Shown in pieces: positions 6,108-52,207 of a stretch of 52,207 nt of DNA (its first letter is position 1; each line of letters begins with the position of its first letter). The notes under the pieces are model-generated. The model had not been told where the DNA came from. It did not search any database and saw only the letters and a program-made list of their open reading frames with translations. The translations under genes and the position numbers were made by a program. Source of the DNA: Candidatus Enterovibrio escicola (GTDB taxonomy: Bacteria; Pseudomonadota; Gammaproteobacteria; Enterobacterales; Vibrionaceae); the NCBI RefSeq assembly GCF_002464935.1, contig NZ_NBYY01000020.1:1-52207 (forward strand), read 5' to 3'.

Positions 6108-7613
6108 TTATAATTCTCGAAGATAAAAATCTTTTTCTTGCTGATCACTAATCGACTTTACGTCATCATTTCTCATATTTTCCAGATATCCCAAATACTC
6201 TTGGTTGATACCTTTAGTAACATAATAGCCACTAAACACTGAACTCTCGAAAAGCTTCACATCTGGATTACCTTCGCGTACCGCATCCTCCAAATCGGAT
6301 AAATCTTGAAAAATTAGACCGTCTGCGCCAATAAGTTTTCCTATCTCATTTACATCTCGACCATGCGCAATAAGTTCACTAGCACATGGCATATCAATAC
6401 CATAGACGTTAGGGAAACGAATTTCTGGTGCAGCCGATGCCATATACACTTGATTTGCCCCAGCATCTCTTGCCATTTCAATGATTTGTCCAGACGTTGT
6501 TCCACGTACAATGGAATCATCTACCAACAGCACAGATTTCCCTTTAAACTCAGAGCAAATCGCATTGAGTTTACGACGTACGGATTTGCGGCGTAGTTGC
6601 TGACCAGGCATGATGAACGTGCGCCCAACATAGCGGTTTTTGACAAACCCTTGTCGATACGGTTTCTCCAGAACCTGAGCAATCTCCAACGCAACATCAC
6701 ACGATGTCTCAGGGATTGGAATAACTACATCAATGTTCAAGTTACCCCATTTCCGACGAATCTTCGCACCTAGCTTTTTACCCATATTTACACGTGCAGC
6801 ATAAACGGAAATTTTATCCATGAACGAATCAGGGCGTGCAAAATATACAAATTCAAAAAGACACGGAGAAAGAGACGGAGCTTCGGCACATTGCCGAGTA
6901 AACAATTGACCGTCAATTGTGATATACACCGCCTCACCTGGTGACACATCGCGCACAAAAGAAAAACCTACGGCATCCAGCGCAACAGATTCAGAGGCCA
7001 ACATGTACTCGTCTCGATTATTTACTATACGTTTTCCTAAGCAAAGTGGACGAATACCATTCGGATCTCTAAATCCCATCAAACCGTATCCAATTATCAT
7101 CGCGACCACAGCATACGCACCCAACACTTGCTTATGTACTGCTTTAACCGAATCAAACACATCTTCTTCAGTCACTGGATGTGATCTAGTACTATCCATT
7201 TGGTGTGCCAATACATTAAGCAGAACTTCAGAATCAGAGGTGGTGTTTAGGTGGCGACGGTCTTGAATAAAAAGAGATTCACGAAGTTGTTGAGTATTCG
7301 TCAGATTTCCATTGTGAGCAAGTGTTATACCATAGGGGGAGTTGACATAAAAAGGTTGCGCTTCAGAAGCACTAGAGCTTCCTGCAGTAGGATAGCGCAC
7401 ATGCCCTATTCCAACGGTCCCTTGTAAGCACTTCATGTCTTCTAGTTGGAAAACATCTTTAACCAAACCATTAGCTTTTCTTAGATAGAAGCGGTTATCA
7501 GCAATGGTACTAATTCCTGCGGCGTCTTGGCCTCGATGTTGAAGTACTGTCAATGCATCATAAATCAACTGATTAACTGGGGTTACACCCACAATTCCGA
7601 CAATCCCACACAT
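6108..7613 (-). CDS. purF: Amidophosphoribosyltransferase PurF
   Basis: PurF catalyses the first committed step of purine synthesis, moving the glutamine amide nitrogen onto PRPP in the cytosol. The 501-residue product is close to the E. coli length (505) and aligns end to end. Cys2 (MCGIVGI) is the glutaminase nucleophile exposed after Met removal. [11 protein letters not shown] and the NGNLTN loop belong to the glutaminase half. [14 protein letters not shown] is the PRPP-binding loop, and [11 protein letters not shown] and [17 protein letters not shown] are synthase motifs. The start is ATG behind AAGGAA, nine bases upstream. It follows cvpA in the same direction, as in E. coli and Vibrio, and the spacer holds an unusual G-rich repeat. 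The C-terminal tail is diverged but of normal length. Confidence 0.97.
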
Positions 7614-7628
7614 GTTTTCTGTTCCTTG

Positions 7629-39379: not shown

Positions 39380-40726
39380 ATGATTAAACTCAAGAAATGG
39401 TTGAAGGATAATGAAATAACAGAAGTTGAATGCGTTGTTAGTGATTTATCAGGGATTGCTCGGGGCAAGATTGCTCCCGTCGATAAGTTTCTTCATGACT
39501 GGGAGATGCGGCTACCTGAAAGTGTTTTATTACAAACAGTTACTGGTGATTATGTCGACGCTGATATTTATTATTCATTGCTTGACGAAGCCGATATTGA
39601 TTTTATCTGTAGACCTGATGACGAAGCAGTGTATAAATTACCTTGGACTATCAAGAAAACGGCACAGATTATTCACAATACGTTCGATAAAATGGGAAAC
39701 CCTCTGGAACTTTCACCGAGAAATCTACTGAGAACAGTACTGAATCTGTATGCAGAACGGAACTGGAAGCCTATTGTCGCACCGGAAATGGAATTTTATC
39801 TCACTGCATGCAGTGACAATCCAGATCTTCCCTTAAAACCCCCAGTGGGTCGTTCAGGTAGAACAGAAACGGGACGTCAGTCATTTTCTATTGATGCTGC
39901 TAATGAATTTGATCCCTTGTTTGAAGATATGTATGACTGGTGTGAAACTCAAGGTCTAGCTATTGATACCTTGATCCATGAAGAAGGTGTGGCACAGATG
40001 GAAATTAATTTTCGCCATGGTGCTCCTCTGGTATTGGCAGATCAGGTTTTTATTTTTAAACGTACTCTCAGAGAAGCAGCACTCAAACACAACGTTGTTG
40101 CCACATTTATGGCGAAACCTATCACCAATGAACCTGGTAGCGCCATGCATTTACACCAGAGTATTTTGGATGTAGAAACAGGTAAGAACGTATTTACTAA
40201 TGCAGACGGTACCAGTTCAGATCTGTTTTTCAGTCATATAGCAGGGCTACAAACATATATCCCTGAAATGTTGCCTATGTTTGCACCTAACACTAATTCT
40301 TTCCGTCGCTTCCTTCCGAGTACTTCAGCACCAGTGAATGTGGAATGGGGTGAAGAAAACCGCACTTGTGGTCTTCGAGTCCCGAGTTGTTCACCGCAAA
40401 ACCGTCGTGTGGAAAATAGACTGGCAGGTGCGGATGCTAACTGTTATCTAGCCATCGCTACAAGCTTACTTTGTGGTTACATCGGTATGGTGAAGAAATT
40501 GATACCGACACCTCCAGTGCAAGGACGTGGTTATGAACCAAGAAGTTCTTCATTGCCACATACCTTAGAGAGTGCGTTAGATCGTATGGAGCGTTGTGAT
40601 GAAGTCGCCGAGTACTTCGGCGAATCATTTGCAAAGGGATTTATCGCCGTTAAACGTGTCGAACAGGAAAATTTTAAACGAGTGATAAGTTCATGGGAAC
40701 GAGAGTTTCTATTACTCTCTGTGTAA
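39380..40726 (+). CDS. puuA: Glutamine synthetase-type ligase, probably gamma-glutamylputrescine synthetase
   Basis: The 448-residue protein belongs to the glutamine synthetase superfamily and looks most like PuuA, which starts putrescine breakdown by glutamylating the amine. Family blocks are visible: N-terminal beta-grasp (VECVVSDLSGIARGKIAP), the metal site VAPEMEFYL, EEGVAQMEINFRHG, the glutamate/ATP region FMAKPITNEPGSAMHLHQS, NSFRRFLPSTSAPVNVEWGEENR and VPSCSPQNRRVENRL. There is no adenylylation Tyr loop of GlnA type. ATG follows GAGGA by eight bases. No other puu genes are nearby, so the exact amine substrate is inferred. Confidence 0.8.
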   Translation: MIKLKKWLKDNEITEVECVVSDLSGIARGKIAPVDKFLHDWEMRLPESVLLQTVTGDYVDADIYYSLLDEADIDFICRPDDEAVYKLPWTIKKTAQIIHNTFDKMGNPLELSPRNLLRTVLNLYAERNWKPIVAPEMEFYLTACSDNPDLPLKPPVGRSGRTETGRQSFSIDAANEFDPLFEDMYDWCETQGLAIDTLIHEEGVAQMEINFRHGAPLVLADQVFIFKRTLREAALKHNVVATFMAKPITNEPGSAMHLHQSILDVETGKNVFTNADGTSSDLFFSHIAGLQTYIPEMLPMFAPNTNSFRRFLPSTSAPVNVEWGEENRTCGLRVPSCSPQNRRVENRLAGADANCYLAIATSLLCGYIGMVKKLIPTPPVQGRGYEPRSSSLPHTLESALDRMERCDEVAEYFGESFAKGFIAVKRVEQENFKRVISSWEREFLLLSV

Positions 40727-41835: not shown

Positions 41836-42510
41836 TCACTGACCGTGACCCCTTACCATGACCATTATGGTTTTAAATATAATGTAGCAATCCATTTTGA
41901 ACCACATCCTCAGTGAGGAGAGGGATAATGCATAGGAATGGTCAAACCCTACCTTCGAACGTACATCTTCAATGCAGGTATCATAACCTTGGTTAATTTG
42001 GGCTAGACCTGTAATTCCAGGTCTAACTCCATAGGTGCGGTCAGCAAAGTAGGGAATGGCATTTTCTAGTTCTTGATAAAAACTAGGACGCTCAGGGCGT
42101 GGGCCAATAATTGACATGTCACCAACTATTACATTGATAAATTGAGGTAGTTCGTCCAATCGAGATTTTCTCAAAAAACGGCCAATTCTGGTTACACGCG
42201 GATCACTTTCGGTTGCCCATGTTGCCCCAGTTACCCTTTCAGCATCGATATGCATGGTGCGAAACTTCATCATATGGAAAATTAAACTTCGGTCGGGTAG
42301 TGCACGTCCAATTCGTATTTGACGAAAAAGGATTGGACCCGGACTGTCGAGTTTTATTGCAATAAAAATAAGTGGGTACAGGGGGAGTGTTAACCACAAT
42401 CCGATAACTGAAAACAGAATATCAAAGACACGTTTTATTGTTGCAGTGGTAGGATTAATGTCACTTTTTCTGTATGTATGCTGCGTGTCTACCCTGTTTT
42501 TATGATACAT
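41836..42510 (-). CDS. Initiating sugar-phosphate transferase (SypR/WcaJ-like)
   Basis: This enzyme transfers a sugar-1-phosphate to undecaprenyl phosphate and so starts repeat-unit synthesis. At 224 residues it is the short, catalytic-domain-only type with one N-terminal membrane segment (VFDILFSVIGLWLTLPLYPL). Bacterial sugar transferase motifs are complete: DSPGPILFRQIRIG, FHMMKFRTM, DPRVTRIGRFLRKSRLDELP, GDMSIIGPRPERP and YGVRPGITGLAQI. The start is ATG. It is the last gene of the cluster, 67 bp after the GT2 gene. The place and type match sypR of Vibrio fischeri. Confidence 0.9.
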   Translation of the reverse strand: MYHKNRVDTQHTYRKSDINPTTATIKRVFDILFSVIGLWLTLPLYPLIFIAIKLDSPGPILFRQIRIGRALPDRSLIFHMMKFRTMHIDAERVTGATWATESDPRVTRIGRFLRKSRLDELPQFINVIVGDMSIIGPRPERPSFYQELENAIPYFADRTYGVRPGITGLAQINQGYDTCIEDVRSKVGFDHSYALSLSSLRMWFKMDCYIIFKTIMVMVRGHGQ

Positions 42511-42577
42511 AGTTGCTACATCTTTCTTTGAGGCGACGAGATGTGATGATCATTTTCAGGTATCTCAATATGCATAT

Positions 42578-43822
42578 TCATCTTTTTTTCTCAATAGAAT
42601 TGTATGTAGGTAAACAGACCCGCTGCCAGCGACCTTTTTCAAGACCAACAATGTATCGAAGAGCACCAAGCATATTGGCGGTATGACTTGACACCAGATA
42701 ACACAGTGTTGCCAGCAGCGAATTTTTTGGGGTGATATTGCAAACAACGAAAAATGTGACGACGATGTAGGTTACTGATTGTAGCGCAGCTCCGACAGCA
42801 AATAAAATGTGGTATTGTGCTAGCCATAACCATGCGAGTAATGCAGTTAACATTAGGAAAGGCATGACGACACGAAGTGCTTTGCCTGAGATGAAGGTAA
42901 ATGCAATGCCACCGTGCTGAGGGTGAAGCAAGTTCATCAAACGGAGTAATTGCTGATAATTACCCGCTCCGATTCGAAGACGACGTTTGAAATTTTGGTT
43001 AGCATTTGTCGGCTCGAGTTCAATAGCACAAATTGCTTTATCAACACTTGAACGGTATCCGCGTGCTACGATCTTCGTCGGAAGTACAAAGTCATCATTA
43101 ATAGTATCTTCTTCAAGAGGTGAAAACAGACTGCGGCGAAATAAATATAAAGCGCCATGTGCCCCAAGTGTCGAACCCAGTTGGGCTTCTTGGTATTGAA
43201 GAGTACTCTGATATTCCCAGTATTTTTTCTCCCCTTTTGAAGGATAAAGTAATTGGTAACGACCATTCACTACACCGACAAGAGGGTCAATGAAATATGT
43301 TGCTGCAATCAATAATGCATCAACAGAAATAAGTGCAGATACATCACTCATCACAACAATATCATCTCCGATCGAAGGCATAATTTTATTAATCACGGCA
43401 ACCTTACCTTCGTTCTCTTCATACTCGATAATAGTCATCTTTAAATGTTGACAAGTCACTTCTCGAAGGGTTTCACTTGCAATGTAAGCTGTGTTATCCG
43501 TACAGCCATCACATGCTAATATCACGCACAATTTATTGCTCGGATAATCGAGTGATGAGAGATTACGGATCTTATCTGCAATCCATTTAGCTTCGTTATA
43601 TGCTGGCATCAGTACTACCATACTGGAAAGCTGGTTATCCGATTCGGTATTGTTGTAACTGCGTGTTGGTGATGGTATCAACTTAGGAGGAAAGTAACGC
43701 ACCAGCACACGTAGTAGTAGGGGATAGCCGAGATGATGATAAATCACCAAGTAGGTGCTAACGGCTGTAACCCAAATAATCCAAGTGTTATCCATATTGT
43801 GATATTTCCGTAAGCGCATCAT
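42578..43822 (-). CDS. Membrane GT2 glycosyltransferase (SypQ-like)
   Basis: A family 2 processive-type glycosyltransferase of 414 residues. It has one N-terminal membrane segment (about 14-42), a GT-A domain with MPAYNEA (72-78), CDGCTD (104-109) and SDVSAL (159-164, metal-binding Asp region), then a KRRLRIGAGNYQQL block in place of the QxxRW signature. Three or four C-terminal membrane helices follow. It likely adds a sugar on the cytoplasmic face. ATG at 43822 overlaps the previous gene by 35 bp; ATG at 43795 (MDNTWIIW) would reduce this to 8 bp. The position equals sypQ. Confidence 0.85.
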   Translation of the reverse strand: MMRLRKYHNMDNTWIIWVTAVSTYLVIYHHLGYPLLLRVLVRYFPPKLIPSPTRSYNNTESDNQLSSMVVLMPAYNEAKWIADKIRNLSSLDYPSNKLCVILACDGCTDNTAYIASETLREVTCQHLKMTIIEYEENEGKVAVINKIMPSIGDDIVVMSDVSALISVDALLIAATYFIDPLVGVVNGRYQLLYPSKGEKKYWEYQSTLQYQEAQLGSTLGAHGALYLFRRSLFSPLEEDTINDDFVLPTKIVARGYRSSVDKAICAIELEPTNANQNFKRRLRIGAGNYQQLLRLMNLLHPQHGGIAFTFISGKALRVVMPFLMLTALLAWLWLAQYHILFAVGAALQSVTYIVVTFFVVCNITPKNSLLATLCYLVSSHTANMLGALRYIVGLEKGRWQRVCLPTYNSIEKKR

Positions 43823-44867
43823 AGGCGCTTACCATGGTACGGATGTTTGCGTTTAATACAACAAATTGGCGAGGACTTGTAACTATGCCTTCGTAAAGGT
43901 ATGTCAAGATCTTTTCTGCCATGTCTTTTGCATCTCCTACCTTGAGAACTATGCCACTTTTTGGACAAAGCGTTTCGATGGCACCACCAACATTCGTTAG
44001 AGCAGTCGGAATATCACATGCCTGTGCTTCGAGTGAAGCAAGTGGAAAACCTTCATTATAGGAGGGCAAACAAAAAAGGTCTAACGCTTGGTAAAAGCAG
44101 GTCATGTTGTTGACATATCCCAGAAAATGCACTCGATCAGTGATTTTCAAAGACGTGGATAACGCGATGAGTTCATCCTTAAGCGAACCGATTCCTGCGA
44201 TGGCAAGATGAACATCAGACGGTAATATAGACATAGCCTCAATTAAAACATGGTGGCCTTTTACACCCTCTAATCGGCCACTAACACCGATAAGTTTAAT
44301 GTCCTTTAGTAAGTTCAATTCTTCCCGTGCACTATTTTGGTTACCAGGAATATACTTGTCAATGTCTATACCATTTTTTATGACTTGAATATTTTTCATT
44401 CCGACTAAGGTGTTCAATGTGTTAGCGACGGTATCGGCATCCGCAATTACTGTTGGTGTTGTTAGGAAATTAATAATTCTTTGCAGTAATTGATGGCGTT
44501 TATTTTTGTAATGCCAAGCATCATGTTCTGTATGGATAAGTGATATACGTGCTAAGCGAGAGGCCAGCCCAGCGTAAAAATAAGGACCAATATGATGTGT
44601 GTGTACGACATCGGCGTGAAGTTGAATAAAAATGCGCAGCAATTGAAAAATTAATACCAGAGAAAAACCAGCTGGCTTGTTGAGAAAAATTAATTGTTCT
44701 TGAAAATATTCTAATTGAGGCCATGCCTCAATCGCAGACTCTTTGTCCCCTTCTAGGCTGATGATTGTCATTTGTTGGCTGTAGTTCGAGAATCGCAATA
44801 ATCCAAGAACCATGGTTTCAAGCCCACCGACTTTTAAATGCTGTACGACTTGAATGATTGTTTTCAA
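43788..44867 (-). CDS. GT4 glycosyltransferase (SypP-like)
   Basis: A retaining GT-B glycosyltransferase of 359 residues. The N-terminal VVQHLKVGGLETMV is the typical family 1/4 acceptor-domain start with a glycine-rich loop. VVHTHHIGPYFYAGLASRLA, the linker IKNGIDIDKYIPG, GVSGRLEGVKGHHVLIEAM and the donor-site EGFPLASLEAQACDIP (E-x7-E, about residues 270-280) follow. The start is TTG with GAGGT eight bases upstream. A sigma54-like site lies 59-72 bases before it. The place fits sypP, which also begins a sigma54-dependent unit in Vibrio fischeri. Confidence 0.88.
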   Translation of the reverse strand: MKTIIQVVQHLKVGGLETMVLGLLRFSNYSQQMTIISLEGDKESAIEAWPQLEYFQEQLIFLNKPAGFSLVLIFQLLRIFIQLHADVVHTHHIGPYFYAGLASRLARISLIHTEHDAWHYKNKRHQLLQRIINFLTTPTVIADADTVANTLNTLVGMKNIQVIKNGIDIDKYIPGNQNSAREELNLLKDIKLIGVSGRLEGVKGHHVLIEAMSILPSDVHLAIAGIGSLKDELIALSTSLKITDRVHFLGYVNNMTCFYQALDLFCLPSYNEGFPLASLEAQACDIPTALTNVGGAIETLCPKSGIVLKVGDAKDMAEKILTYLYEGIVTSPRQFVVLNANIRTMVSAYDALTEISQYG

Positions 44868-44925
44868 GATTACCTCAAATACAATGAATAAACATTTGTT
44901 AGGATGAAACAGGTTTTATATTCAA

Positions 44926-44939
44926 GCAAGATTCATACC
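44926..44939 (-). promoter_or_regulatory. Sigma54-type -24/-12 promoter upstream of the SypP-like gene
   Basis: On the coding strand, GGTATGAATCTTGC has GG and GC separated by exactly ten bases, with TTGC at the -12 element, flanked as GGGTATGAATCTTGCTTG. The consensus is TGGCAC-N5-TTGC. The predicted transcript start (about 44914) would leave a leader of about 47 bases before the TTG start at 44867. No enhancer site was confirmed upstream. Confidence 0.5.
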
Positions 44940-45029
44940 CTATATATAATTAATTGATAATTTTGGGTTTAAAATAAATCCAACGGGTGTAGTTGCCTAT
45001 TATTTGTATTCTAGGAGGTTATATGAGAA

Positions 45030-47432
45030 TCACTGGGTGAGGTTAATGATTTGTTGACGCCACGTGCTAAGTTGATATTTCCCCACATTCTTCATGACTT
45101 GCCATTCATCAGGGATCTCTCGGCGTAATTGATTCAAGAGTGACTTGGCGGTGCTGTCGTATTGTGCTTGGTTAACTAACCAGAGTAACCAACGGTGATC
45201 GATGATACCCTCCATCATTTCATAAAGCACAATGTTAATATCAGGCTCTTTAGGGCAAGGGTATTTTGAAGGATACAGGAATTGTACATCAATTTCTCGA
45301 CCATCAGTAGGGTCGAAGGGGTCGGCGGTGGGCATGCGTCCGTGCCATTTTAAGAATCCATCCGCTCCGGATTTCCAGAGATAAAACCCAGCTGCGGCAC
45401 GTGGATTAGGCAGGTTGTAAAGCCAAACTTTACGATCATCTTGTTGTGCATCCTGTATTTCCTTTTTGTCGGCACCAAACCCATCATTGATGAGGATCAT
45501 ATCGAACATGGGAAGGTATTTTTTGTCTTCCTCATGGTTAAGGTGTCCGGCTAATTTTGCACTGGGCGCCAATAACGAAAAGTTTCGGTACATTTCTTTG
45601 AAAAGATCAACATTTCCAGGATTACTTGGTTCATCTGCAATTGACCAATATGGGGAGTTATGAAGACGTTGTTTGTGTTGCATCTCCAGCCTTGCAATCA
45701 CATTGGCGGCATTGCTTGAACCAAGTATCTGACTTAATCGCTTAGCCGGAGCATATGCTAGCGGAGCGTAAAATCCCATTTTGTTTAACAAAATAGAAAG
45801 TGTTTCAAACTCTTCATTCAATTCGTCATTGTGTGGTGTTGGGTATGGGGGAGAAATGCCAGTTAAACCCAGCTTCCTAAGGTACTTAAGATCACAGATC
45901 ATCGCTTGTTCTCCAAATGAAGATAATGTCTCGAACCAGCCAAAGTAAACAGGTTTTTCCAAATAAATACCGACGGGTTTCGTTAGATCTGGCAATGTAA
46001 CAGGTATAATTTTGACACTGAACGGAGCGCTTAAGCTTTTCCCCTGCATCATGATATGCAGTTCCCCTTGGTATTTTCCTGCAGGTATTCCTTGCGGCAC
46101 ATCCACGCGAACCATCAATTGTCTTGGCATGGCCAAATCAGTATTTTCTGGCATTAGTCCATGTCGTAAGTAGGTATCTTTGACTTCAAGTAAGGTCGAT
46201 GACAGGTGTGTGCGAATCAGGTGCCATTGGCTCCAATGTACAGTGGTGGGAATCGTAATGCCGTTTTTTTTTGGTTTTTTCACCATAATGAAAGGAGCAC
46301 CTAGGATATTTCCTTGTTGAAATAAAAACTCTGCAATGACAGATATGCCAGGTACGGCGTAAAGCATCGATGCCGTCGCCTTGAGACTGGGTTGTCCCGT
46401 TGAAGATTGACGCCAATCTTCAACTGGCCAGTTTCTTTTCCACCACACTTTACGTTGGCGAGTGAGCATATCAAGGATCATAGGATTGGTACTTGGTACA
46501 GCTAAAATGGCACTAACAAATTGCGCGTCGATTGAATCACCACGTAAACGCAGTATCACTGGCTTTCCATCACTTACAACATTGAAAGTTATGCGGTCAT
46601 CTATTCTTTTTCCAAAGTGTTCCCAACTGTTACTCTCTGGTGACACTTGGATATCTCGCCGACCAAGGTAAACATGTTCAATCCACTCCATCGGAGAACG
46701 GTTCTGCACATATACACGTCGACCATTGGCGTAAATTTCCCTTTGTAAAGGGTGTGGGAGATATTCCCACTCACCTGCATCCCTTAACCACAGTGTAATT
46801 TGCCACTTTCCGACAGGTAAGGGTAATTCTACGGTATCAATTCCTCGAATTCCATCAATAGTCAGGCTATCCGAAAGTTGCATTCTCGTACTTCGATCAA
46901 TGGAATCTAACATTTTTCCTGTTAGCATGCCGGTATGGACGGTTAAAGGCTTAAAACCAGGCCAAATAGCGCTGTCGACAGGCCCTAAATCCCATGCATA
47001 AATGTTTTCTCCAATGGGTTTCGGTATTACAATATTGGCGGAAATTATGGAAAATCCCTGTCGAGGTTCACTAGGGAAAAGTATGATCTGTTGGAGTGTT
47101 GAGAGATTAAGCTGACGACCGTTCGGGGTTCTTAGGCTGGCAAAAGATATATGTAATTCAAACTCACCAAAAGGGATCACACGTTCTAAGTTGGCGCGAT
47201 CGGCGTAGCTAGGATTCTGAGTATCATCTGCTCGAATAACCAAGGTGATGTTAGCATCCGACAGGTTGGTGCCTTTAATCAGTAGTAGCGTGGTTTCAGA
47301 TACGGAATTTAATTTAGATTCTTCTAGTAGAATTTTAGATACTGCAGGTGTGCAAATTATCAATAATAAGGTGAACAGTAAAAAAAAAACATTATTTATT
47401 CCTTTCTTCACTTGTATAAGAAGAATTCTCAT
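45030..47432 (-). CDS. Large secreted protein with glycoside hydrolase-like C-terminal region
   Basis: This 800-residue protein starts MRILLIQVKKGINNVFFLL, with a signal peptide or membrane anchor (about residues 14-32) and GGAG eight bases before the ATG. The middle (about 330-480) looks beta-rich, with a segment like VRVDVPQGIPAGKYQGELHI found in Ig-like domains of DUF4091-type proteins. The last ~310 residues resemble a TIM barrel: GIYLEKPVYFGW, LRKLGLTGISPPYPTP, YWSIADEPSNPGN (acidic Asp-Glu pair, about 595-605), FDMILINDGFG and GADGFLKWHG. It may be a carbohydrate-active enzyme acting on the polymer outside the cytoplasm. It lies between the SypO-like and SypP-like genes, where V. fischeri has no gene. 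The substrate is unknown. Confidence 0.6.
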   Translation of the reverse strand: MRILLIQVKKGINNVFFLLFTLLLIICTPAVSKILLEESKLNSVSETTLLLIKGTNLSDANITLVIRADDTQNPSYADRANLERVIPFGEFELHISFASLRTPNGRQLNLSTLQQIILFPSEPRQGFSIISANIVIPKPIGENIYAWDLGPVDSAIWPGFKPLTVHTGMLTGKMLDSIDRSTRMQLSDSLTIDGIRGIDTVELPLPVGKWQITLWLRDAGEWEYLPHPLQREIYANGRRVYVQNRSPMEWIEHVYLGRRDIQVSPESNSWEHFGKRIDDRITFNVVSDGKPVILRLRGDSIDAQFVSAILAVPSTNPMILDMLTRQRKVWWKRNWPVEDWRQSSTGQPSLKATASMLYAVPGISVIAEFLFQQGNILGAPFIMVKKPKKNGITIPTTVHWSQWHLIRTHLSSTLLEVKDTYLRHGLMPENTDLAMPRQLMVRVDVPQGIPAGKYQGELHIMMQGKSLSAPFSVKIIPVTLPDLTKPVGIYLEKPVYFGWFETLSSFGEQAMICDLKYLRKLGLTGISPPYPTPHNDELNEEFETLSILLNKMGFYAPLAYAPAKRLSQILGSSNAANVIARLEMQHKQRLHNSPYWSIADEPSNPGNVDLFKEMYRNFSLLAPSAKLAGHLNHEEDKKYLPMFDMILINDGFGADKKEIQDAQQDDRKVWLYNLPNPRAAAGFYLWKSGADGFLKWHGRMPTADPFDPTDGREIDVQFLYPSKYPCPKEPDINIVLYEMMEGIIDHRWLLWLVNQAQYDSTAKSLLNQLRREIPDEWQVMKNVGKYQLSTWRQQIINLTQ

Positions 47433-47487
47433 TTTATTCTCCTATTTATCGCCTAGTAGGAATCCAAGTCATTTTGGAAATACCATT

Positions 47488-48987
47488 TTACTTTTTTGGA
47501 CTAGATAATACTTTTATATGCCCTTCGATAACTAAATGATTGCTATCAATAAGTGTGAATTTATCTTTTAGTGGGGGAATACGGGTGATTACGGGGGAAC
47601 TAGTAATAGCCTCCAATGTTGAAATATGGCGGATTGTTGTATTGGTAAGTTCAAGTAATACAGCCGTGCTGAACCCCAGTAATACACCTCCGATTAGGCC
47701 AGAAATCGTGAAAACGATCAAAGAAATATTGCTAGGTGTACTAGGAGAAAATGGACGGTCAATTATTTTGATGCGTTTATCTTGTTCGAACACCCCGAGT
47801 GAACTGGTTAATCTTGCCATTTCATAACGCTCAAGTAATTCGTGAAACAATTTACGTTTTATTCCTAAATCATGTTGAAGTGTTTGTATCTTACGCTCTT
47901 TTTCACCTGATTGATTAGTCTTTAACTCCAACGCCTTAATTATTCCCCTCAAGCTAGACGTCTCCTCCTGCAGCATGTCAACCCTGCTTCGTGCAAGTTG
48001 GAGGTTTTCAAGTTGAAAAATCAACATAGGTTGAGATCCATTCTCCGTGTTAAGGTGGGAGCTGCTAGCGATATCCCAGAGTTGGTTGCTATCTACCGTA
48101 AGTATAGTGTTTGCAAGGAGCTTGGTTCTTTGCTTCTCTAAATGGTTGAGATTACGTATGGCACCTTTAACCATACTGTGTTGATCGGTATAACGTGCTT
48201 TGAGTAAGGCCAACTTACTTCGAATTTTGACAATCTGCTCTTCAATTCTGCCGATAACTGGGTTGGTACTAGAAAGTTGTTGATCAAACCCACCCAAACC
48301 TTTCTTGGCACCTGCCATTTCGGCTTCTTTTTCAGAGAGACGTTGCTTCAATTGCTCAATACGCGAATAGTTTGCGATCTGAAGTTCTGGTAACCCTTCT
48401 GGATGCTTACTTTTGAAATCTGTGAGTGCAACCTCTGCCTTGTCGAGGTCTTTACGACGGAGTTTAATGTGTTCTGACAAGAAATAACTGGAATCTTTCA
48501 TTGATGAACGTTCAGGTGCTAAAAGTTCATCAATAACATAACGGCTTACGTCCTCCAACGTTTCCTTCATACCCTCAGATTGGTTTGAATGATAATCTAT
48601 CCGAATAACATCTTTACCTATGGTGCTCATAGTTAAGCCATTTGATAGAATTTCTATGGTATCATTGATAAGTCTTGGTTCAGACTTTTCGGTAATAAAC
48701 CCTTGTTGTAAAGCTACCTTACCTAGGATGTGCCGACTGTGTAATAGTGTTTGTAAGCTGCTAAAACGTTCATCCATTTTTGCTGAGACGGCTAAATCTT
48801 CAAGAAATGGATTCATTTTAGATGTCTCTTGAATCAACATACTGGTATGTGAATTAAATGCTTTCGGGGTTAACAATCCAATTATCGTACCTATGAGAGG
48901 AAAAATGATAATGGGCAACATAATTACGTACCGTCTCCGCCAAGCTCCATCTAGCAGAACCAGCAGTTTATACGTCAGTGTGTTCAT
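47488..48987 (-). CDS. Chain-length determinant / polysaccharide co-polymerase (SypO-like)
   Basis: A Wzz/GumC-type inner-membrane protein that controls polymer length and links to export. I chose ATG at 48987 (MNTLTYKLLVLLDG) because it overlaps the stop of the preceding gene as ATGA; a longer in-frame start at 49032 is less likely. The protein has 499 residues. One membrane helix lies near residues 19-40, a long periplasmic coiled-coil part follows (KLRRKDLDKAEVALTDF, REQ-like KQRLSEKEAEMAGAK), and a second helix lies near the C-terminus (LIVFTISGLIGGVLLGFSTAV) after the proline-rich DRPFSPSTPSN motif. No tyrosine-kinase domain is attached. Confidence 0.88.
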   Translation of the reverse strand: MNTLTYKLLVLLDGAWRRRYVIMLPIIIFPLIGTIIGLLTPKAFNSHTSMLIQETSKMNPFLEDLAVSAKMDERFSSLQTLLHSRHILGKVALQQGFITEKSEPRLINDTIEILSNGLTMSTIGKDVIRIDYHSNQSEGMKETLEDVSRYVIDELLAPERSSMKDSSYFLSEHIKLRRKDLDKAEVALTDFKSKHPEGLPELQIANYSRIEQLKQRLSEKEAEMAGAKKGLGGFDQQLSSTNPVIGRIEEQIVKIRSKLALLKARYTDQHSMVKGAIRNLNHLEKQRTKLLANTILTVDSNQLWDIASSSHLNTENGSQPMLIFQLENLQLARSRVDMLQEETSSLRGIIKALELKTNQSGEKERKIQTLQHDLGIKRKLFHELLERYEMARLTSSLGVFEQDKRIKIIDRPFSPSTPSNISLIVFTISGLIGGVLLGFSTAVLLELTNTTIRHISTLEAITSSPVITRIPPLKDKFTLIDSNHLVIEGHIKVLSSPKK

Positions 48988-50144
48988 AGGGCATCTAACC
49001 ATCTTTCTAAATCTTTCGCACGGGATTCCCAAGTATGTAGTTTAACTGCGTTTTGCTGCTGTTTCCGGCGCAATCTATTGCATGATTCATAGCGTTTCTC
49101 ATGGATCTGTTGGAAACGAACTTGCTCAAGCGCGCTTACCATTTCGTAGGCAGTTTGCACTATCGAGACGAATGAGGAATAACTTGTGATGGCAGGGAAA
49201 GGGGTACTGATAATAGGAGTACCAGTGGCAAGATATTCTCTTAATTTTAATGGGTTGCAGGATTTAATTTGTGCGTTACTTGTGAAGGGAAGCATGCTCA
49301 CCGTCCAATGTTGACTGTAGCTAGGTAGTAAGTGATGTGGGCGATGAGCGAGTAACGTCACATTACTATACGATTTTAGTAGTAATGCGCGTTTACACGC
49401 TGAACCAATGAAAACGAAATCCCAGTAAGGTAACACTGAAATAATAGTATCTAACAAATTGTAATCCAACCATTCAGATAAGGAACCATAAAAGCCTGCA
49501 ATAGGGCGCTGGTTGTCAGGCAAATCAGGAGCTCTCAATACTGGTATGGAAAATAATGTATAATCAACACCATGTGGTAGAAATTTAGTACGTTGGTGGG
49601 GGAAGCGAGAAACCAGAGTTTCGCTAGAGGCTAAAATAAGATCAGCTTTTTCGACCAATTCTGCTTCGCGGCGCACGACAGTGTTATGATCGACTCCTGC
49701 CAACGAGGAAAAATCATCACAACAATAATAAACTAAAGAGGTCGTTCCTAGCTTGTCAGCTACATCAACGGCTGTAGGTAAGGATGTCCACATGATTGGA
49801 TCACGTAACTTCGCTCTCTTGATTATAGGGAGCAATTGTCTGCTTAACCAGTTTGAAGCCAGTTCGCGACTAAAACATGTGCGTGGTGCTGGGAGAGTGA
49901 TTGGATTAACGATCGTTATATTGTGAAGTGCTAGTTTTTCTTGAGCAGGTTTATTACAGATCGTCTTGGCTGATAACTTTTTCAATACACGCATGATGTC
50001 ATGTACTGACAGGTGAGGTTGACGGAGACCAATAGAGTTAATCCAAATAATCTTACGTTTAACAGCAAGGTGACGGATTAGGTGTTGGGTGCTTGATGGT
50101 AATCCACCCCAATCTTCTCCAAACACGATAAGGTCTCTGCTCAT
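48984..50144 (-). CDS. Glycosyltransferase, GT-B type (SypN-like)
   Basis: A 386-residue glycosyltransferase resembling TuaH/WcaL-like family members. It starts LIVFGEDWGGLPSSTQHLIRHLA (acceptor side). VDVADKLGTTSLVYYCCDDF, KADLILASSETLVSRFP and FLPHGVDYTLF lie in the middle, and the donor site is represented by FYGSLSEWLDYNLL and CNPLKLREYLATGTPIISTPFP (K-REYLA-G-PVVST block). No signal peptide is present, so it acts on the cytoplasmic side. Both ends are coupled: its ATG overlaps the acyltransferase stop and its stop overlaps the chain-length gene start. Position fits sypN. Confidence 0.85.
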   Translation of the reverse strand: MSRDLIVFGEDWGGLPSSTQHLIRHLAVKRKIIWINSIGLRQPHLSVHDIMRVLKKLSAKTICNKPAQEKLALHNITIVNPITLPAPRTCFSRELASNWLSRQLLPIIKRAKLRDPIMWTSLPTAVDVADKLGTTSLVYYCCDDFSSLAGVDHNTVVRREAELVEKADLILASSETLVSRFPHQRTKFLPHGVDYTLFSIPVLRAPDLPDNQRPIAGFYGSLSEWLDYNLLDTIISVLPYWDFVFIGSACKRALLLKSYSNVTLLAHRPHHLLPSYSQHWTVSMLPFTSNAQIKSCNPLKLREYLATGTPIISTPFPAITSYSSFVSIVQTAYEMVSALEQVRFQQIHEKRYESCNRLRRKQQQNAVKLHTWESRAKDLERWLDAL

Positions 50145-50956
50145 TTTTCCCTCTCTGTATTAGTTGCTATTTCTGTGTTATCGACTCCTCTTGTATTAAT
50201 AACCTTATCCACATAAGTTTCGATCTCTGCATCGGTTAAACGTCGGATTATCTTTGCAGGCATTCCTCCCGCGAGTACATTGGGTGGTAAATCTGATGTT
50301 ACCACACTACCTGTCGCTACAATGGTTCCATGACCAATGGTAACTCCCGCCATAACAGATACCCCTGTTGCTAACCAGACATCTTTTTCAAGGATAATAT
50401 CCCCGATCTGACAGTCTAATTCTGGCAGTCCAGCGGCGCGGTCTTCCGCATTGATGGGATGACCTGGGTATCCTGTAAGGAAAGCACGACCAGAGATTCG
50501 TACGTTGTCACCAATAACGATTTTTTGTCCGACAGCGATGGTGGTTTGCCAACCAATATCGATATTGTTGCCGATGAGCAATTTAGGTTGTTTGTTACCA
50601 CCGTCGACCCCTGACTTGGGATAGGCACGTCCTGAAAAAGTGGATTGACCCGAGATTCGGCATCGTTCTCCAATTGAAATGTGTAATGGACCACTGATAT
50701 AGGGTATACCTCCATAGAGGTACAAACCTCGCCCGACATGTTGTAGACGGCCTTTAAATAAGGGTGTCCACCATAAAGTTCTGGTTAAGTTTGTCCATGT
50801 AACCATCAAGAATGTGGTGATATAGTACAGTGGTAAAAAAATAACTTTCGGGGCGGGTATACTCATGAGTATGAGTGCATTTAGTGCGTGAAAAAGCCAT
50901 TGAGCTAGAGGGTTTTGACTGTTTTTTAGCCAGTGTCTGATTGATTGAATGGCCAT
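50141..50956 (-). CDS. Hexapeptide-repeat acyltransferase (SypM-like)
   Basis: A 271-residue left-handed beta-helix acyltransferase that probably acetylates a sugar of the polymer. The N-terminal ~65 residues are hydrophobic (IPAPKVIFLPLYYITTFLMV) and may attach it to the membrane. The hexapeptide repeats run from about residue 85 to 240 (LYLYGGIPYISG, LLIGNNIDIGWQTTIAVG, IGDNVRISGRAFLTG, ILEKDVWLATGVSVMAGVTI), ending in the signature GGMPAKIIRRL. Catalytic His candidates are in YPGHPINAEDR. It overlaps the next gene by ATGA. The position corresponds to sypM. Confidence 0.88.
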   Translation of the reverse strand: MAIQSIRHWLKNSQNPLAQWLFHALNALILMSIPAPKVIFLPLYYITTFLMVTWTNLTRTLWWTPLFKGRLQHVGRGLYLYGGIPYISGPLHISIGERCRISGQSTFSGRAYPKSGVDGGNKQPKLLIGNNIDIGWQTTIAVGQKIVIGDNVRISGRAFLTGYPGHPINAEDRAAGLPELDCQIGDIILEKDVWLATGVSVMAGVTIGHGTIVATGSVVTSDLPPNVLAGGMPAKIIRRLTDAEIETYVDKVINTRGVDNTEIATNTEREK

Positions 50957-50971
50957 TAAATTATTCCACCA

Positions 50972-51868
50972 TTACAAATTTTGTAAAACTATGTGTTTGG
51001 TTTGAATAGCTATCTTCATGAAGATAATGTCATAAGCGAGAAATTGTAGTGGAACAGTGTAGAGTAAATACCGAAAGACAGGATATGTATTTGGTGTTTT
51101 AAGTCCATGTACAATATGCATTTTTTCCGGTTTAATTCCTTTATGGTTACTAATCTTAGGATTATGTGTAGTACTCTTTCGAAGATTTGATCTGCTATGC
51201 ACCTGCAAGGTGCAGGGAGCGGTAATAATCACTATAAGTATATATTCGGATGAAACAAATGATTGTGTTATGGATCCGACTCCTTCAAGTTTCTTGGCTA
51301 CGGCAGCCATTACGTGTTGTGACGGCAGCGAATACTCAATCAGCTTGCACTCAATTCTTCTGATCAATCGCACTGTGGTCTTGACTGATCTAAGGTTTAT
51401 AAGACCCAAAAACAGCAGATGAACTATAAAGGCCTTGATGGATCTTACATCGATTCTAGCACCTATACGGGTTTTGACAAAACCGTCACTGTCTGCCATC
51501 ATCCTACCTGAATCGACGTTCATTAGTGGCAACCAAGTAAAACGATCTTGTCTAGTAGAGAGTAAAGCCCCTAATTCATCGTAAATCATGACAAATTAAA
51601 CTCTCATCAGTGACAAGATATTTGAGGGCAATGAAGAGTCTTGATATCGGTATTCAGGGGTGATACCAATTTTAACAGATGTGTCTTCATAACAGTAGTC
51701 AAACCAATAGGAGGGGAAGATGATTGCACAATCTGAGGTGTAACAAGTGACAATCGATAGTAGGTTGTAACGTCCAAATTGTATGGAAATTTCGTGTCTT
51801 TCAGCGTGAAATAATGTTGTTGTAGTAGTCTTCCTCATGACGGCACTCCAAACCTTTTCCATCCTCAA
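50972..51868 (-). pseudogene. Unrecognised gene upstream of the acyltransferase, probably broken
   Basis: Two minus-strand frames, 51868-51596 and 51589-50972, lie end to end and look like parts of one gene split by a stop and shift near 51592. The first contains FHAERHEISIQFGRYNLLSI and CAIIFPSYWFDYCYED. The second contains LLSTRQDRFTWLPLMNVDSG, LIEYSLPSQHVMAAVAKKLE and SITQSFVSSEYILIVIITAP; its last ~70 residues are basic and may be out of frame. I do not recognise the family. In V. fischeri sypL (ligase/polymerase type) lies here, but no set of membrane helices is visible, so I do not make that call. Confidence 0.45.
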
Positions 51869-51892: not shown

Positions 51893-52207
51893 AGTGTTAT
51901 TGATTAAATCAGGCCTATAACGCACTAAGCCCAATATTATTTACAGTTTTAATTTATCTGCTGGCGAACAGGCATACTGAGTCTTATAACTTTGTTCATA
52001 GCTTTCACATTTGCCAGCGATTCACTAACTTGTGCATTATAATTATGAAGAGTAAGTTTAGGGCTGAGCAATTATTTATAGCGAAACATTGCTGTCTCTG
52101 CTAATGAGAGTTTGTGATAACCCCTGTCCTTTTTTACTCCGCCAGTTTGTCCTATTTTAAAGCCTTTACAGCTTCATTTCTAGGATACTCTTCCTCCCAG
52201 TACCCCG
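51893..52207 (-). mobile_element. IS903-type 3' fragment running off the window end
   Basis: The terminal repeat (GTGTTATTGATTAAATCAGG) starts at about 51893 and matches the end at 4173 with substitutions. The minus-strand coding reads a degraded C-terminus: GYHKLSLAETAMF-like, then LTLHNYNAQVSESLANVKAM and MPVRQQIN-like remains. The rest lies beyond 52207. Confidence 0.75.

Follow-up and report, generated by a model that had tools for sequence, protein, structure and literature searches.

The Seven-Gene Block

The right-hand part of contig C26 (NZ_NBYY01000020.1) of Candidatus Enterovibrio escacola MJ02, which lives in symbiosis with the anglerfish Melanocetus johnsonii (PMC6020299), carries seven genes in the order M-N-O-X-P-Q-R, in which an additional gene, X, is inserted into the sypM-sypR order known from the syp polysaccharide locus of Vibrio fischeri. 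The window analysed here is the entire contig of 52,207 nucleotides, whose right edge falls inside a multi-copy repeat; the genome comprises 2,645,619 bases on 39 contigs and is the only E. escacola genome in the analysis. An earlier note, made from the letters of the window, described seven intact genes in one direction, named their protein families and proposed partial coupling by ATGA overlaps. All seven genes are open and lie on the minus strand between 41836 and 50956 (Table 1), the family assignments agree with Pfam and NCBIfam matches, some of them weak, and ATGA overlaps are present at M/N and N/O, while the P/Q overlap uses another register. The start of sypO is likely the ATG at 48987, which places it in the ATGA overlap with sypN. 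Open reading frames of at least 120 residues cover 97% of the block, as against 57% of positions 1-41000.

Comparison of the M-R proteins with loci from Enterovibrio, from other Vibrionaceae and from the same order places the block firmly. The order M-N-O-X-P-Q-R is found in all eight Enterovibrio loci fetched (in L019 in frameshifted pieces), and M-N-O-P-Q-R without X is complete in seven of eight loci outside the genus, with no more than O-P-Q-R seen in the remaining one, L026; such recurrence indicates that the order is not due to chance. SypM is 61-70% identical over 244-246 residues in seven of the eight genus loci and 68% identical over 216 residues in the other. SypO has matches of 68-74% identity in 13 of the 17 Enterovibrio genus mates searched and none in the remaining four (G007, G008, G014 and G017). 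The TTG start of sypP is an ATG at the same residue in at least two relatives (L012 and L016). In three genus mates with larger genomes (G013, G016 and G003), A-K followed by M-N-O-X-P-Q-R form one run, in which B is an OmpA protein, C an export protein, D a tyrosine kinase and F a protein of 1003-1029 residues; in G013, sypL precedes sypA.

The same set can be recovered from MJ02. SypA is identified by 73% identity to a genus copy, SypB (OmpA), SypC (SLBB/Wza) and SypD (tyrosine kinase) are colinear with the A-E genes of the genus mates, SypE combines HATPase_c_2, Response_reg and SpoIIE matches on a single protein of 528 residues, and the SypH-K and SypL classes (glycosyltransferases, flippase and Wzy_C ligase) are present. 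All 18 syp genes are thus represented, with 17 open and sypF alone reduced. As judged from these comparisons, the block is a true syp-type cluster, as the earlier note had recognised from the window, and forms the M-R end of a full set; the export and regulatory genes, whose absence from the genome would have spoken against it, are encoded elsewhere (OmpA, Wza-type protein, tyrosine kinase, SypA, SypE and SypG). The host association that it had proposed agrees with the published origin of the genome, an anglerfish light-organ symbiont.

Table 1. Features of the syp block, its surroundings in the window and the post-sypK trio.
Feature	Position	Strand	Remarks
sypR-like sugar-phosphate transferase	41836-42510	-	224 aa, intact; Bac_transf
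sypQ-like membrane GT2 glycosyltransferase	42578-43822	-	414 aa, intact; PgaC-like GT2
sypP-like GT4 glycosyltransferase	43788-44867	-	359 aa, intact, TTG start; Glycos_transf_1
candidate sigma-54 box GGGTATGAATCTTGCT	44925-44940	-	9/12 consensus bases, 73 bases before sypP
candidate SypG half site	about 45015-45029	-	before sypP
gene X	45030-47432	-	800 aa, between sypO and sypP; weak GH123_cat
sypO-like polysaccharide chain-length protein	47488-49032	-	TIGR03007-like, weak Wzz
sypN-like glycosyltransferase	48984-50144	-	386 aa, intact; TuaH-like, weak Glyco_trans_1
sypM-like hexapeptide acyltransferase	50141-50956	-	271 aa, intact; Hexapep match
decayed 3' half of syp-linked glmS	51014-51781	-	open copies of 607-624 aa here in L012, L013, L017, L018
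multi-copy repeat, taken as insertion sequence end	51894-52207	+	contig edge
post-sypK exosortase-like trio	L049:17440-19910 (MJ02 C37); L077:13642-15951 (E. luxaltus); L012:3783-6071		

Scattering of the Locus

The syp genes of MJ02 lie in at least four places: M-R on C26, A-E on C31, an F remnant with G-K on C37, and L, which carries a Wzy_C match, on C7. On C37 the order is F remnant, G, H, I, J, K, an exosortase-like gene, a gene for a 173-residue protein and one for a DUF4114 protein. The earlier note suggested that sypA-L be sought to the right of position 52207; the contig ends there, and A-L are found on other contigs. Loss of H-K or of L from the genome was considered and is refuted by their location on C37 and C7.

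Repeats that are multi-copy in the window also adjoin E on C31, lie both ahead of and inside the F region and precede H on C37, and it is therefore likely that the scattering was caused by rearrangement through copies of insertion sequences. The repeats are taken as insertion sequences on the basis of their copy number in the window and of PMC6020299. The repeat at the right edge of the window is 99.4% identical to the end of C37. A junction of C26 and C37 through a single repeat was considered, but the repeat end has one and the same orientation at the two contig ends, so that a copy common to both would not bring sypK and sypM together in order. In L012 and L014 the next gene after sypR encodes a protein of 402 residues, presumably nucleoside-permease-like; it has no match anywhere in the window, so that the left flank of sypR is likewise rearranged. 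A glutamine synthetase-like gene lies to the left of sypR at 39380-40726.

In the second anglerfish symbiont, Ca. E. luxaltus, a single contig bears A-G, H-K with the trio, and M-R at three separate sites, and L lies on a different contig. Its breaks are at G|H and K|M; MJ02 is broken at E|F and also, as far as its contigs show, at K|M. The breakpoints differ in part, so that the same genes have been kept through partly different rearrangements.

The interval between K and M is occupied in some genus members by glmS, by the trio or by both. In the window, the reading frame at 50972-51589 upstream of sypM is a piece of the decayed glmS, and the only other GlmS match, a weak one of 142 residues at 7194-7619, is probably another amidotransferase. 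The trio, found after sypK in some Enterovibrio, among them both symbionts, consists of an exosortase-like membrane protein, a protein of 173-201 residues and a DUF4114 protein, whose tail (PLP, a hydrophobic stretch and basic residues) we take to resemble a PEP-CTERM sorting signal. Against the exosortase model TIGR04178 (cut-off 23 bits), the MJ02 copy scores 14.9 and the genus copy in L012 24.7, and the E. luxaltus copy has no match. SypL, too, has an exosortase-associated model, TIGR03097, as its best NCBIfam match, with a score under the cut-off.

SypG

The retention of syp genes in both anglerfish symbionts has been published (eLife 2019, PMC6773444). The same paper reports that BLAST detected neither sypF nor sypG in any genome of E. 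escacola, and proposes that their loss could help E. escacola to colonise more hosts; several E. escacola genomes were considered by Baker et al. In MJ02, SypG is an intact protein of 476 residues with REC-AAA-HTH_8 architecture, encoded at C37:132283-133713 upstream of H-K. It is 74-83% identical, over nearly the full length, to 13 genus copies and 76% identical over part of its length to that of G006. In the literature on the anglerfish symbiont, E. luxaltus and sypG that was consulted in part, no correction of the reported absence was found.

A second, SypG-like class with 53-58% identity to SypG is among the matches listed in 16 of the 18 genus genomes. It is most likely LuxO and includes G007 and G008, which have neither HPt nor SypO matches. 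None of this class is among the matches listed for MJ02 (G000) or E. luxaltus (G004), where there are only weaker ones of at most 41%, in agreement with the published absence of known lux regulators, as far as reported in PMC6020299. In MJ02, sypG and sypH are separated by an NAD-dependent epimerase gene of opposite orientation (L049:9861-10805, minus), which is also present there in two genus mates (L030:16249-17193 and L033:11461-12444, both minus), and possibly encodes a sugar-nucleotide enzyme for the polymer.

Erosion of SypF

With E. norvegicus SypF as the domain-by-domain reference, neither symbiont has the full protein of sensor, HisKA, HATPase, receiver (REC) and histidine phosphotransfer (HPt) domains. 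In MJ02, REC (76% identity over 116 residues) and HPt (55% over 116 residues) share a single open frame of 276 residues, PAS gives a match of 33% over 83 residues and HATPase one of 39% over 41 residues, and HisKA has no match; the sensor, HisKA and HATPase parts are thus lost. In E. luxaltus, only HPt is open (55% over 113 residues, in a frame of 150 residues), REC is in two broken pieces and no trace of the kinase was found in the same comparison. The residues that we take to be the HPt histidine and the receiver aspartate are retained, the former in both symbionts and the latter in MJ02. Between the REC-HPt of MJ02 and those of three genus mates, the nonsynonymous divergence (dN) is 0.33-0.37, compared with 0.28-0.34 among the mates themselves; synonymous divergence (dS) is saturated.

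An HPt match at E ≤1e-9 occurs in 120 of 247 Vibrionaceae genomes, 104 of them outside the genus. In these 104, the HPt frame has at least 700 residues in 47 (four of which also have a short one), at most 190 residues only in 55, and 245-246 residues in two. Frame length alone can mislead, as split genes are found among the short frames: of five short or middling cases inspected, L078, L080 and L020/L031 each have a stand-alone gene, and in L079 and L074 (a genus member) the gene is split, with kinase sequence upstream. HPt-only thus looks like a common natural layout in the family. In the sources on rbd, scv and syp loci, consulted in part, no statement of an HPt gene in such a locus was found, and one may exist in print. 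In V. fischeri, HPt alone restores sypF deletions (PMC12369376, PMC11841056), and the RscS receiver is paired with the SypF HPt (PMC8175716).

A Candidate Kinase and the Proposed Relay

A hybrid kinase of 610 residues with HisKA-HATPase-REC architecture is open in both symbionts, whose copies are 68% identical to each other, and has no Hpt match in a domain scan. In G009, G011, G012, G013, G015 and G016 its gene shares a contig with sypG, at a distance of about 9-9.5 kb, and in G013 and G016 it directly precedes sypA. It is away from the locus in G001, G003, G005, G010 and G017, without a single full frame in G001 and G017, and only weaker matches are listed for G002, G006, G007, G008 and G014. 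In both symbionts, candidate sigma-54-core sites precede A, H, I and P, the two best candidate sites listed before M and before G in MJ02 are without a sigma-54 core, and rpoN is present.

From these features we infer that the SypF relay has collapsed onto a hybrid kinase that lacks HPt. The phosphoryl group once supplied by SypF's own kinase would now come from another HPt-less hybrid kinase, for which the syp-linked HisKA-HATPase-REC protein is the best candidate, and would reach SypG and SypE by way of the HPt that survives. SypG together with sigma-54 would then switch on the scattered syp operons. For the polymer itself, undecaprenyl phosphate may be the carrier on which SypR starts the repeat unit; the glycosyltransferases may extend it and SypM acylate it, SypK may flip the unit, SypL polymerise or ligate it, and SypO, SypD and SypC control the length and export of the product.

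Gene X

Gene X encodes a protein whose N-terminus is hydrophobic and, by eye, signal-peptide-like. It is seen in all eight Enterovibrio loci fetched, and a scan of named genomes gave 12 confirmed loci, all in Enterovibrio or Grimontia and including Ca. E. luxaltus CC26. Among 369 class members searched, only two genomes besides MJ02 were matched, one with a relative of 34% identity and one with a weak partial match.

All eight X copies match Pfam GH123_cat at E values up to 0.1, the best being 2.7e-4. In a low-confidence model based on eight close homologues, residues about 343-800 find GH123 as the best fold match in two comparisons, at 9-16% identity. Asp600-Glu601, within PYWSIADEPSNPG, is invariant in the eight aligned Enterovibrio copies, and catalysis in GH123 uses an adjacent Asp-Glu pair. 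X therefore looks like a distant GH123-type glycosidase, which may act in the periplasm or after secretion and trim or recycle the syp polymer. The known GH123 beta-N-acetylgalactosaminidases BvGH123, NgaDssm and NgaCa are the best fold matches of the low-confidence model and, like X, have an adjacent acidic pair; X differs from them in the low identity of the structural alignments, in scoring below the Pfam cut-off, in its extra N-terminal beta domains and in its setting within a polysaccharide cluster.

Alternative Explanations

The reading preferred here, at a probability of about 0.7, is that the block forms the M-R end of a syp pathway which is complete though broken up, whose relay would be rewired through the surviving HPt and in which X would serve as a glycosidase. 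That an unrelated capsule or O-antigen cluster arrived at a similar order by convergence hardly merits consideration: sugar transferases and glycosyltransferases are indeed common, and several of the best NCBIfam matches are XrtA or capsule-type models under their cut-offs, but each gene matches its counterpart in the same order in genus, family and order mates. As far as the relatives compared can show, their gene order and the SypA-, SypE- and SypG-type regulators that accompany the cluster rule such an origin out. It is more conceivable, though still improbable, that the pathway is on its way out, with M-R merely not yet decayed and the SypF fragment a chance remainder. In the genome, 974 of 3,290 coding sequences are called pseudogenes (PMC6020299), sypF and the syp-linked glmS are broken, sypP starts with TTG, and its candidate sigma-54 site scores lower than in relatives. 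However, the four separate places hold 17 open syp genes between them, and the set retained by E. luxaltus is the same despite breaks elsewhere. At a pseudogene rate of 30%, the chance of 17 open genes out of 17 is about 0.003, a figure that treats as independent genes that are not and a rate that includes transposon genes. In addition, dN of SypM, SypN, SypR, X and SypG between MJ02 and two genus mates is about that between the two mates, with dS saturated.

Two further doubts concern parts of the preferred reading. The REC-HPt and HPt remnants could be functionless leftovers of chance, with SypG constitutive or fed by a different HPt, and this we consider unlikely, if somewhat less so than decay of the whole pathway. 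The remnant frames lack clear start signals, and in one V. fischeri background some residual biofilm, supported by LuxU, persists when SypF is absent (PMC12369376). Against this stand the same gene end kept open in two species whose upstream parts have been erased to different extents, the conserved HPt histidine and, in MJ02, receiver aspartate, and the 55 of 104 HPt-bearing Vibrionaceae outside the genus whose only HPt match lies in a short frame, most of these frames being uninspected. A structural or binding protein on a GH123-like scaffold, rather than an enzyme, is a somewhat stronger contender for X, if still the less favoured one: the Pfam score of the window copy (19.2 bits) is under the gathering cut-off of 23.1, and nothing useful came from searching PDB sequences with the profile of X (best E 0.85). 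The invariance of the acidic pair favours an enzyme, as does the 34% relative, which shares its contig with flippase-like and GT4-like genes.

Relation to Known Systems and Significance

Like the V. fischeri syp locus (VF_A1020 onward, 18 genes), MJ02 has all 18 gene classes, the regulators SypA, SypE and SypG, and candidate sigma-54-type boxes before several syp genes. It differs from that locus in being split over at least four places, in the separate position of sypL, in a SypF without sensor and kinase, in gene X between O and P, and in the exosortase-like trio after K. The scv locus of V. parahaemolyticus and the rbd locus of V. vulnificus resemble it in their biosynthesis genes, in a SypG-type regulator and in not needing a full-length SypF. 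Both are reported to be without SypE (PMC4517449), and scv to be without SypE, SypF and SypM (PMC8941931), whereas MJ02 has SypE and, unlike scv, SypM. The circuit proposed for MJ02 is of the same type as the path from RscS through the HPt of SypF to SypG in V. fischeri (PMC8175716), except that in two genus mates the gene of the candidate Enterovibrio kinase adjoins sypA, and its link to the relay is our inference.

In the part of the literature on these symbionts and on syp loci that was consulted, no prior report was found that describes SypG as intact, SypF as eroded domain by domain, or what kind of protein X is. Taken together, there is perhaps an even chance that the two symbionts, independently in at least the last steps, cut SypF down to its phosphotransfer end while keeping SypG and an HPt-less partner kinase. 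The syp switch would then answer to one kinase rather than two, the HPt-only layout that about half of the other HPt-bearing Vibrionaceae seem to possess would have been reached here by decay, and the published host-range idea would be overturned for the reference genome.

The regulation of syp has been tied in print to which hosts luminous symbionts can colonise. With sypG intact in MJ02, the explanation that E. escacola owes its many anglerfish hosts to a lack of sypF and sypG has to be revised. The loss of SypF domain by domain amounts to a natural experiment that agrees with the work on HPt alone in V. fischeri and points to one candidate kinase. The GH123-like protein and the exosortase-like trio within the locus offer two handles on the nature of the polymer and on its possible processing or anchoring.
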